Assembly: GCA_017621885.1 (NCBI GenBank)
Contig: JAGASD010000063.1
Coordinates: 1-64,000 of the forward strand
Source of the DNA: Clostridia bacterium
GTDB lineage: Bacteria; Bacillota; Clostridia; Oscillospirales; Acutalibacteraceae
Direction of reading: 5' to 3'
DNA length: 64,000 nucleotides
The position numbers were made by a program, and so were the translations under genes. Position 1 is the stretch's first letter; the number at the start of each line of letters is the position of its first letter. Under the pieces are notes generated by a model. It did not search any database. It saw only the letters and a program-made list of their open reading frames with translations, and was not told the origin of the DNA. This document shows, piece after piece, positions 3,049-23,124 of this stretch.

Positions 3049-3124
3049 CAAGGACTGATGCTTTATAAAACAACAAACTCTGTTACCCGAAAGGGTAGCA
3101 GATTTTTTGTTTTGCGATATAAAT
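3049..3124 (+). repeat. 76-base repeat, copy 2 (carries terminator and GCGATAT)
   Basis: This is the second copy of the repeat at 1171-1246, with about five substitutions and no gaps. Here the terminal GCGATAT is the first unit of a full palindrome array. Both copies lie directly downstream of a gene, so the repeat supplies that gene's terminator. Confidence 0.85.
3079..3108 (+). terminator. Rho-independent terminator after the zinc-ribbon membrane protein gene
   Basis: The hairpin TCTGTTACCC / GGGTAGCAGA with a GAAA loop is followed by six T. It is identical in sequence to the terminator at 1201-1230. Confidence 0.85.
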
Positions 3125-3304
3125 CCCTGTCGGGATTTGCGATATTTCCCGTTGGGAAGCGATATGTGTTTTACACGCGATATGTTTGCTGAAGCAAACG
3201 AGGATTTGTATCGCTCCGTGTTGCCAACGGCAGCATATCGCATCGACAGATATCGCATTTGATACCATCAAATATATCGCGTTTCATTCCGCAAAACATA
3301 TCGC
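3114..3304. repeat. Array of short palindromes separated by GCGATAT, then by ATATCGC
   Basis: GCGATAT occurs at 3114, 3139, 3159 and 3177. The intervals are palindromes of unrelated sequence: AAATCCCTGTCGGGATTT, TTCCCGTTGGGAA, GTGTTTTACAC and, after the fourth unit, GTTTGCTGAAGCAAAC. From 3208 the 7-mer runs in the opposite sense, as GTATCGC at 3208 and ATATCGC at 3235, 3250, 3274 and 3298. The intervals here include ATTTGATACCATCAAAT (3257-3273) and GTTTCATTCCGCAAAAC (3281-3297, a 4-bp stem). The two halves can pair through the 7-mers, leaving the palindromes as side hairpins. With the terminator it fills the 408-base gap before the MFS gene. Confidence 0.85.
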
Positions 3305-3413
3305 CCTTTTATCACTCTGACATGGTTGTGACAGTATTTAAAACTTGTTATTGCAGCATATTGTATTTAATCAACGACTGATGTATAATAGCTGTTGAAA
3401 GGGCGTGCTATAT

Positions 3414-4808
3414 ATGAAAACGGCTGAAAAAATGCATCTTAAAGAAACGAAAGAAATTACAAGACTTTCTAAAATGCAGAACCGCAGCGCAGGCAGTAAG
3501 TATTTTTTTGTTCTTCTTATTCTTATTGCGGTTGTGAATATTCTGGATGAGGTTACGAGTAATCTTACCGTAACTGTACAATCGTCTTTTGTAACGGAGT
3601 TTTTTGTAAATAACCCGTTTATGGGTAAATTTTATACCTATGAGGAGGGTCTTGCTTTTCATTCGGGTATAGGTGTTTTTACATATGTATTAGGTATTTT
3701 TACACCTTTCTACAAAGCCCTTGCCGATAAATTAGGAAGAAAGCCGCTTTTCGTTATGTCAACCTTGGGTATGGCGGCGGGACTTCTTATTATACACCTG
3801 TCAACAAGCTACATTATGTTTCTTGTAGGCTTTGCCGTTATAAGCTTCTTTATGGGTCACGATATACAGATTATTTATATTCTTGAAGAAGCTCCACGCA
3901 AGCATAGAGCTAAAATATACAGCTTCCTTAAAAGCTTCGGAATTCTGGGTGTTATACTTATTCCCACACTTCGTGATATACTTATGGGTGAGGACAGCTC
4001 AAAGTGGCGAGAGATTTTTCTTGTGCCTGCCCTTATCGGCTTCTGTGCAGTTTTACTTGTAATATTATTTGCCAAGGATACAAAGGTTTTTATAAACGAA
4101 CGTTTAGCGTATCTTTCACGCCCGCTTGAAGAGCGCGAAGCAGAAAAAGAGCTGAAAAAACAGAAAAAGGAAGCACAAAGAAATCAATCGGGTGTATTTA
4201 ACGGTGTGAAGTATATATTCTCATCTAAAGATACAAAAATGCTCATAATATCTCACATCATTTTTGATGCGGCAATGCCTGCAATTGCATTGTATTTTGA
4301 GTCGTCAATGCACCGTGCGGGAATGAGCACGGGGAATATTACAAAAGCCTTGTTTATGGTACCTGTGATATATGCTTTAATAACGTTCCTGTCAGGATTT
4401 ATTGCCGATAAATTAGGCAGAAAAGTAACCGTAACACTTTTTTCCGTTACTTGTGTAGCAGGCTACGCTCTTTTTGTGGCAGGTATTCTTAATGGCTGGA
4501 ATCCTTATCTTATAGGCTCACTTGCAGGTCTTTATCAAGGCTCCTATTGGATCGGCAGAGACTATATGAACGTAATGATGACGGAAAAGGTTCCTACGGA
4601 TATACGCGCTTCGGTTGTGGGTGCTGAAGGTCTTCTCGTTATAATAGGTCTTGCTGTAGGCTACGGCGTTACCATAGCAGGAATGCTTGTGCTACCCATA
4701 TGGTGGGCTTGCCTTGCCGTGTCATTACCTGCAGTTTCCGTGGCTGCAATTATGTTTGTATTGAAGGTTAAGGAAACGAAGGGCGCAAGCCTTGATGAAA
4801 TAAAGTAA
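3414..4808 (+). CDS. MFS transporter
   Basis: This is a 464-residue major facilitator superfamily permease with about twelve hydrophobic segments. The cytoplasmic loop motif ADKLGRK appears twice, once in each half (after the second and the eighth membrane segments), which is diagnostic of the fold. A charged central loop (EEREAEKELKKQKKEAQ) joins the halves. The first 30 residues are hydrophilic and unusually long. I chose the ATG at 3414, preceded by GAAAGGG; a GTG nine bases earlier is in frame but too near that site. The substrate cannot be read; nearby glycosidase genes make a sugar or glycoside possible. It stands alone on its strand. Confidence 0.85.
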   Translation: MKTAEKMHLKETKEITRLSKMQNRSAGSKYFFVLLILIAVVNILDEVTSNLTVTVQSSFVTEFFVNNPFMGKFYTYEEGLAFHSGIGVFTYVLGIFTPFYKALADKLGRKPLFVMSTLGMAAGLLIIHLSTSYIMFLVGFAVISFFMGHDIQIIYILEEAPRKHRAKIYSFLKSFGILGVILIPTLRDILMGEDSSKWREIFLVPALIGFCAVLLVILFAKDTKVFINERLAYLSRPLEEREAEKELKKQKKEAQRNQSGVFNGVKYIFSSKDTKMLIISHIIFDAAMPAIALYFESSMHRAGMSTGNITKALFMVPVIYALITFLSGFIADKLGRKVTVTLFSVTCVAGYALFVAGILNGWNPYLIGSLAGLYQGSYWIGRDYMNVMMTEKVPTDIRASVVGAEGLLVIIGLAVGYGVTIAGMLVLPIWWACLAVSLPAVSVAAIMFVLKVKETKGASLDEIK

Positions 4809-23009: not shown

Positions 23010-23092
23010 ATATCGCATACGCAAGTATATATCGCATTGTAGATATATCGCACCGTAGGTATATCGCCCGAAAGTGGGTAGTTCACTTTCGG
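23010..23092 (+). repeat. Second array of palindromes separated by ATATCGC
   Basis: ATATCGC occurs at 23010, 23029, 23045 and 23061. Each is followed by a different palindrome: ATACGCAAGTAT, ATTGTAGAT (one G-T pair), ACCGTAGGT, and finally a 9-bp stem CCGAAAGTG / CACTTTCGG (23068-23092). The rule is the same as in the array at 3114-3304, with no shared palindrome sequence. Confidence 0.85.
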
Positions 23093-23124
23093 TTAGTCTT
23101 TTGTTGAATAGAACAACATCCTAC

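Follow-up and report, generated by a model that had tools for sequence, protein, structure and literature searches.

The window analyzed here is a 64,000-nt stretch of a contig (JAGASD010000063.1) from a Clostridia bacterium of the family Acutalibacteraceae. Near its start, between two open frames, lies an array of short hairpins separated by a constant 7-mer (3114–3304). The separator is GCGATAT at 3114, 3139, 3159 and 3177, and its complement ATATCGC at 3235, 3250, 3274 and 3298. The next frame on the same strand starts near 3414 and is, by eye, transporter-like; no gene of the 23S-rRNA-IVP (IVP) family described below follows this copy of the array. Ahead of the array (3067–3113, no strand assigned) is a terminator-like hairpin, termed HP0, which consists of CTGTTACCC-GAAA-GGGTAGCAG at 3080–3101 with an A-rich run before it and a T-run after it. 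It folds as the outer hairpin, and a hairpin also precedes many relatives of the array.

All units of the array are read on the forward strand. The left half begins with separator s0 (3114–3120), followed by hairpin 1 (3121–3138; AAATCCC-TGTC-GGGATTT, 7 bp), s1 (3139–3145), hairpin 2 (3146–3158; TTCCC-GTT-GGGAA), s2 (3159–3165), hairpin 3 (3166–3176; GTGT-TTT-ACAC), s3 (3177–3183) and hairpin 4 (3184–3199; GTTTGC-TGAA-GCAAAC). Hairpins 1 and 2 are found both in the predicted fold and by the count of pairs within each interval, hairpin 3 by that count and hairpin 4 from the sequence. The center, GGATTTGTATCGC (3202–3214), complements the start of the array (3114–3126) with one mismatch, and its final 7 nt (3208–3214) can be read as a degenerate (fused) first right-hand separator. 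The right half continues with a degenerate hairpin, TCCGTGTTGCCAACGGCAGC (3215–3234), assigned by eye against relatives, and then with a separator (3235–3241), the degenerate interval ATCGACAG (3242–3249), which pairs only by borrowing the AT of the next separator, and that separator itself (3250–3256). These are followed by a hairpin of 7 bp, ATTTGAT-ACC-ATCAAAT (3257–3273; predicted fold and pairing count), a separator (3274–3280), an imperfect hairpin, GTTTCATTCCGCAAAAC, with 4 outer bp (3281–3297; pairing count) and the last separator (3298–3304).

The preliminary description of this locus, made from the letters alone, reported palindromes alternating with a constant 7-mer in two mirror halves. 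The array and its mirror halves are real, but not every interval is a palindrome. Four of the seven are perfect, with 7, 5, 4 and 7 outer pairs, while interval 3281–3297 is imperfect (4 of 7 pairs) and two are not palindromes: 3242–3249 by itself, and the central interval 3184–3234 (51 nt), which contains the perfect hairpin 3184–3199 and further material. The six short intervals have 27 outer pairs in total, a number equaled in none of 20,000 shuffles, so the array is not a product of chance. GCGATAT occurs 24 times in the whole window compared to 6.6 expected, and none of 100 shuffles had as many. The RNA fold of 3080–3310 has an energy of −89.9 kcal/mol (z −7.5), which none of 200 dinucleotide shuffles matched, and the DNA fold of the same segment also has z −7.5; the proposed ability to fold thus withstands the shuffled controls. 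CRISPR arrays have repeats of about 21–48 nt and unrelated, non-palindromic spacers. With repeats of 7 nt and mostly palindromic intervals, the array is not one of them, as had been stated.

By sequence comparison, the window array is one copy of a dispersed element. The pattern GCGATAT-N9-20-GCGATAT occurs 33 times in the same genome and its reversed control 0 times, and 28 of the 33 distinct intervals have at least three outer pairs. The pattern is present in 18 of the 22 genomes of the genus, this one included; low counts in some (e.g. G001 and G003) look like chance, because the intervals there are not palindromic by eye. Within this one genus the number of arrays ranges from 0 to tens according to species. 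A search of relatives for runs of several units, the check proposed at the outset, gave many multi-unit copies in other genomes among the matches listed, which also include unrelated tandem repeats and chance matches and are not used for a rate.

Copies aligned by reading have a common plan, HP0-[s-hairpin]x4-center-[s'-hairpin]x3-s', in which s' complements s. After HP0, which is often terminator-like, the left half is s0-H1-s1-H2-s2-H3-s3-H4 and the right half s'1-H5-s'2-H6-s'3-H7-s'4, and the center between them is the reverse complement of all or part of s0 and the first arm of H1. Some copies consist of the left half alone (e.g. in G133). Of the marks of a MITE, which has terminal inverted repeats and a short target duplication, terminal repeats are visible by eye in copies from G059, and none is established for the window copy. 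The window copy fits the plan with damage at 3208–3214, 3215–3234 and 3242–3249 and with one surplus imperfect hairpin at its end, again by eye. The hairpins are very free in sequence, with 40–50 distinct forms per position among 57 oriented elements. It had been said that the palindromes share no sequence with one another. This holds within the window copy, but between copies the positions are recognizable: hairpin 1 is often AAATCC..GGATTT, AAATCC being its commonest arm (32 of the 57 elements). In five other loci (L415, L416, L426, L434 and L295) the mirror order seems by eye to be reversed, with separators of the ACATCGT or ATATCAT type first and their complements past the center.

The separator differs by lineage (GCGATAT, GTGAAAT, GTGATAT, ATGATAT and others), and the opposite half changes along with it. 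Counted over the 57 oriented elements, Watson-Crick pairs join the halves at 1,169 of the 1,197 positions within separators (97.7%), compared to a mean of 979 (82%) when halves are swapped between elements. A stem with side hairpins, as first proposed, is possible, and its two sides covary between lineages. In this arrangement (fold A) s0 pairs with s'4, s1 with s'3, s2 with s'2 and s3 with s'1, giving a stem with three four-way junctions; the minimum-energy fold predicted for the window contains it only in part. In a second arrangement (fold B) the array start, s0 and the first arm of H1, pairs with the center. In 55 of 68 element groups, one or both of the orientations tried give a center in which the first six bases of H1 find an exact complement; for crossed pairings of centers with elements of different H1, each in one orientation, the figure is 264 of 4,218. 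The two arms of H1 and the center thus vary together, despite the frequency of AAATCC. Because the 57 elements were oriented through the fold-B complement, a fold-B count among them is circular; the count of 55 of 68 is free of this. The window copy itself does not pass the exact six-base test.

Mismatches distinguish the two halves. The stems of the left arm have 820 Watson-Crick pairs and few, evenly spread mismatches (9 G.T, 10 A.C and 4 C.T), with no strand bias. Those of the right arm have 947 Watson-Crick pairs with 98 A.G, 21 G.T, 3 A.C, 1 C.T and 8 other mismatches, an A.G signal that comes in part from one related hairpin type. Tandem 5'-GA/GA-3' mismatches occur in 46 of 342 hairpins, every one of them in the right arm. 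The mismatch counts leave out stems less than 60% paired (13 of 342) and come from related elements, so that the events are not independent. Such a one-sided pattern in the right arm suggests the sense strand in single-stranded form, with which RNA and sense-strand DNA would agree equally well.

The left half resembles Gut-1, an RNA candidate that has been an orphan since 2010 (Weinberg et al. 2010, PMC2864571). Window positions 3112–3188 match the Gut-1 model (RF01706) at 38.2 bits (E 3e-4 over 30 kb) in an alignment across all 77 model positions, and both have three hairpins set apart by a constant 7-mer. This score is below the gathering score of 50, so the window half is not a Gut-1 member by score. 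The consensus plans are alike, with a longer hairpin 1 and then two shorter hairpins between copies of the separator, which is GUGAAAU in Gut-1 and GCGATAT in the window. The Rfam model covers the left half only, whereas many strong Gut-1 matches have the same mirror half, center and HP0 as the window family; others are left halves only. The model was run on 147 order genomes; matches with E no greater than 0.001 occur in 64 of them, and 52 have one above the Gut-1 cut-off. Fourteen control genomes gave one match, sub-threshold, in E. coli. Ahead of Gut-1, 17 of 30 first-hit loci have a tRNA gene, whose end always falls 29–42 nt before the match, the gap being occupied by HP0 where the sequence was read. 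At one locus (L170, 1380–2500), four tandem Gut-1 elements of two alternating types follow one tRNA-Trp gene, and a stretch like a tRNA T-arm (GAGTTCGAGTTC or GAGTTTGAATTC) comes after three of the four. As to carriage by phages, of 189 loci examined on viral contigs, four (L444, L490, L519 and L555) have a Gut-1-like mirror array; two more (L574 and L610) matched the search and are plain tandem repeats.

Complete relatives of the array carry a gene. In many copies, a gene of about 115 codons follows directly after the right arm, and 21 array-bearing loci among those examined have an IVP-type frame after the array (L152 and L240 are one place). Three of the proteins match PF05635 (23S_rRNA_IVP; E 1e-22 to 7e-21) and two match NCBIfam TIGR02436 (four helix bundle protein; E 7e-25 and 2e-24), and the sole strong match among solved structures is PDB 2rld (E 3e-23). 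The IVP family is described as resembling Avd of diversity-generating retroelements (PMC10053308), and its proteins as having no known function (PMC4990558). The preliminary description captured the array itself, and missed the likeness to Gut-1, the terminator-like hairpin ahead and the IVP gene that follows in complete copies. In the 147 order genomes, Gut-1 and PF05635 occur together in 55, Gut-1 alone in nine, IVP alone in 16 and neither in 67 (odds ratio 26, p 1e-16, relatedness ignored). Genomes of the genus with more arrays also tend to have higher IVP counts (Spearman 0.68, n=22, relatedness likewise ignored).

The arms were classed at 108 IVP loci, drawn from the genus, the order and a small number of MAG records and all with flanks long enough for the purpose. 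Mirror arrays (type A) are present at 59, 33 by a strict test passed by 0 of 324 shuffles and 26 by eye; at 46, bare tandem repeats with a unit of 7 or 8 nt precede the gene (type B), and three loci have neither. The type-A loci include a clade of IVPs, termed KTIKEL, with the separator GCGATAT. In this clade, the right arm ends 13–18 nt ahead of the start codon, and at 7 of 11 loci the left arm recurs past the gene in direct orientation (shuffled, 0 of 11). In 36 of the 48 other type-A loci, a promoter-like site lies between the right arm and the IVP start, compared to 15% of shuffles, so the arms are probably not part of the IVP mRNA there. A role of the arms as purely a 5' UTR therefore suits the KTIKEL clade but not most others. 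A tRNA gene is found within 520 nt upstream at 30 of the 48, at none of the 11 KTIKEL loci and at 6 of the 46 type-B loci. One IVP element in a tRNA-Leu region (L289) is flanked on either side by the 5' portion of the tRNA (about 40 nt), by eye as if duplicated at insertion.

Relatives differ in the presence of these elements at orthologous sites. One such site, which has a histidine kinase gene on one side and an ABC transporter gene on the other, was compared in 13 genus genomes with a kinase orthologue at 68% identity or more. Four (G020, G009, G014 and G017) have the order left arm, right arm, IVP gene, left arm, with the IVP frame broken in G014 and the state of G017 taken from locus L262, since the L392 stretch falls past the site. 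A solo left arm stands at the same spot in G012. An array is lacking in the other eight genomes, and three of these (G000, G015 and G018) have an unrelated insertion; the G015 contig ends soon after. This insertion downstream of the kinase gene (L385, L386 and L387, in G018, G000 and G015) is about 400 bp long and contains hairpins, and on its other strand a short frame resembles by eye a holin-like small peptide. At a second site, after serS (22 genomes, by eye), G020 and G009 have the left-right-IVP-left order and G012 has left and right arms only, with left separators changed to TCGATAT and right ones to ATATCGA. Five genomes (G000, G014, G017, G018 and G019) have a short bare heptamer-like run there, G007 and G008 other sequence and ten a mere short gap, while G013 and G015 cannot be judged. 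In form, these states resemble LTR elements and solo LTRs. The comparison of relatives bears out, as an appearance, the earlier impression that the array is part of something mobile, although the pattern of presence and absence would fit loss as well as gain. At the window locus no clean empty site was found: the five relatives with an orthologue of the downstream gene also differ in the upstream gene.

Bare heptamer arms are widespread around IVP genes. Under a phasing test that requires at least 15 of 21 matches, the best lag in the 108 loci is 7 in 38, 14 in five, 8 in three and another value in four. A lag of 7 or 14 is thus found in 43 of 108 loci, compared to 13 of 2,160 local shuffles and 2 of 114 stretches more than 1,200 nt away from the gene. 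This count is used rather than that among type-B loci (43 of 49), which is circular, type B being defined through the lag test. An inverted arm is present in the downstream flank at 22 of the 46 type-B loci and at none when shuffled. Plasmid loci were found with a type-B protein as query, and all 12 examined, among 25 of 40 matching records, have a best lag of 7 or 14 on both sides. They belong to Bacteroidota, Spirochaetota, Cyanobacteriota, Chloroflexota and Bacillota, and mostly 0 of 100 shuffles reached the same result (1–4 of 100 on a side in Monoglobus, Chlorohelix, Gloeocapsa and Pseudanabaena, the last with 4 on both sides). Fourteen further genomes were searched and ten gave IVP matches; of 30 loci taken, 27 had enough flank. 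A lag of 7 or 14 exceeds the shuffles on at least one side in 22 of the 27 and a lag of 8 in one, and the four with neither arm type include three from one deltaproteobacterial genome. In two cyanobacterial plasmids (L637, Anabaena cylindrica, and L641, Pseudanabaena galeata), the gene for the four-helix-bundle protein adjoins CRISPR cas1, together with cas2 in Anabaena.

On a tree of the 108 IVPs, which has few columns, many open forks and a midpoint root, type A requires only 2 changes, compared to a mean of 35.8 when labels are shuffled, and it sits inside type B. Going by this nesting, arms with hairpins seem to have been elaborated late from bare heptamer arms; bare 7-nt arms are probably the ancestral form, with hairpins fitted between the heptamers later. 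The separator also follows the IVP clade, as counted for 13 heptamers chosen beforehand: GCGATAT in KTIKEL, ATGAAAT or GTGAAAT in KGHYSL, GTGATAT in SILRDK, GTGATGT or ATGATGT in LSMxFSV and GTGAAGT in SQSM, with a mixture in LSMQLSV. That protein and heptamer changed together suggests recognition of one by the other.

We consider it likely that the window array is an arm-only, non-autonomous copy, or remnant, of a small selfish element of the 23S-rRNA-IVP (PF05635) kind. Complementary arms built of 7-nt units (GCGATAT/ATATCGC) are present in the window copy, and the IVP gene is present in the complete relatives and absent here. This reading draws on features observed directly: the anatomy, the covariation, the linkage to IVP genes, the presence and absence at orthologous sites and the clade-specific separators. 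It also suggests a shared origin for the orphan gut RNA family and the seven-letter repeats around IVP genes. We infer further that RNA is the acting form, that the IVP reads the heptamers and that arm-only copies are mobile in trans. None of the ten PF05635 matches in the same genome (nine loci, all read; assembly 94% complete) is an intact IVP of the KTIKEL type; the assumed helper is thus missing from the assembly, which counts against mobilization in trans today. Also against the reading stand the nine order genomes that have Gut-1 matches and no IVP match, and the loci (three of the 108 and four of the 27) with neither arm type.

A complete element consists of the terminator-like hairpin, the left arm, the right arm with complementary heptamers and the IVP gene, to which one clade adds a second, direct left arm. 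The left and right heptamers can pair into a central stem with four-way junctions at the joints and the hairpins as side branches, and hairpin 1 can pair with the center as an alternative, giving two mutually exclusive folds. In the most likely way of working, the sense strand would act as structured RNA or single-stranded DNA, and an oligomer of the IVP of the same clade would read the heptamers. The fold might let the element sit harmlessly by host terminators and tRNA genes. As an RNA or single-strand scaffold read by the IVP, the arms would then either shield the host transcript or undergo RNase III cleavage, as happens with the intervening sequences (IVSs) of 23S rRNA.

Of the other explanations, the one that survives best is that the array is a free-standing structured RNA, namely the Gut-1 sRNA, or an RNA that acts in cis in some function of the host, and that the IVP genes are mere companions. 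Rfam types Gut-1 as an sRNA gene, and the strong RNA fold (z about −7), the excess of G.T over A.C and the tandem G.A mismatches on one strand of the right arm and the tRNA genes 29–42 nt ahead of 17 of 30 first-hit loci would all suit such an RNA. However, the copy number varies from 0 to tens across one genus, relatives differ at orthologous sites, arms, IVP clade and separator change jointly, and in the copies read a terminator-like hairpin lies between tRNA and array. We therefore regard this explanation as unlikely. Less likely again is that the hairpins are kept perfect by mutation, with template switching in quasi-palindromes mending both arms of what are passive repeats. The nearly pure Watson-Crick stems of the left arm (820 pairs to nine G.T) and the great freedom of the hairpins are what this process would produce, yet it leaves unexplained the covariation of distant separators (97.7% compared to 82%), the complement between hairpin 1 and the center, and the confinement of tandem G.A pairs to one half.

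The suggestion of a REP-type transposase does not hold up well. An element of the REP/BIME or IS200/IS605 type, with hairpins that a Y1 (RAYT-like) transposase mobilizes in the form of single-stranded DNA, would share with the arrays a hairpin with a constant short foot, convergent halves and dispersed copies, and Y1_Tnp matches do occur in some array-rich genomes (G020, G009, G005 and G012). Their distribution, however, does not follow the arrays: with this one Pfam model (PF01797) there are 0 matches in the genome of the window and in the array-rich G006, G008 and G014, and matches are present in the array-free G011. A REP/BIME element accompanied by a RAYT was rejected on the same absence in the window's own genome, and movement by a Y1 enzyme is very improbable. 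Equally improbable is a double-stranded DNA cruciform serving as a recombinase site, the multi-branched form raised earlier, because a cruciform has no strand preference and the right arm has 98 A.G to 1 C.T and 21 G.T to 3 A.C on the sense strand, even if the inverted repeats are perfect, the DNA fold is strong and the left arm is free of strand bias.

BOX elements of Streptococcus are modular, dispersed and foldable as RNA, with a variable number of inner units, and their modules keep their sequence. The window family is likewise modular and dispersed, but here only the separators are constant, and the complete form carries an IVP gene. The 23S IVS of Coxiella, like the complete relatives here, encodes an IVP within an element whose ends are complementary, and tandem GACAGAT heptamers are reported ahead of its IVP frame (PMC4990558), which fits the 7-nt arms. 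That IVS is embedded in 23S rRNA, from which RNase III excises it (PMC4990558), whereas the window family is intergenic, often downstream of tRNA genes or terminators, with its heptamers set apart by hairpins. The window array was rejected as a 23S IVS itself, given its position between two open frames and the lack of any rRNA in an Rfam search of window positions 1–30000.

Tandem 7-nt units between genes are described for Cyanobacteria, Bacteroidetes and others in the available parts of two reports, as TAACTGA (PMC4679880) and as GGGAATC and GGGGA(C/T)T (PMC4692102), and the IVP loci here bear such arms. For the over-representation of heptamers in bacteria, these parts offer only a polymerase-slippage hypothesis (PMC4692102, PMC4679880). 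The terms "four helix," "four-helix," "S23" and "intervening" are all absent from the text of PMC4679880, and "four helix" and "intervening" from that of PMC4692102; the link of the published repeats to IVP loci is a proposal made here. The Gut-1 description (PMC2864571), as far as it was available, names no protein partner. A search of the open-access literature, which leaves most preprints and subscription journals outside, found no paper linking Gut-1 or intergenic heptamers with the IVP. IVS elements, Gut-1 and heptamer repeats are each already known, while that literature yielded neither an arm laddered with hairpins nor the joint anatomy nor a link between all three.

A broader proposal can be made more tentatively, as something quite possible that we would stop short of calling probable. 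IVP genes and their 7-nt arms may form a class of bacterial mobile elements of their own, in which an oligomeric IVP would read a phased ladder of heptamers on single-stranded nucleic acid, an LTR-like direct repeat of the left arm would collapse to solo arms, and insertion would occur by terminators and tRNA genes. Autonomous, non-autonomous and solo-arm forms of this class would then account for orphan Gut-1 RNAs, 23S IVSs and a large part of the so far unexplained excess of intergenic heptamers. The link joins Gut-1, the IVP and the heptamers into one testable question, namely whether an IVP binds the heptamer of its own clade and whether IVP elements move. The natural design of the arrays is unusual as well, in that the joints of what may be a ladder of four-way junctions are constant while every side hairpin is free to change.

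A second dispersed repeat is present in the same genome, at window positions 23010–23107 and at four other loci (L009, L013, L016 and L017). It consists of runs of ATATCGC with mini-hairpins of 9–12 nt (ACCGTAGGT, ATCGCAGAT and ATACGCAAGTAT), and its number of units varies. The four other loci have a flank in common, with GGTACCATT and a short hairpin, and some copies end in CCGAAAGT.
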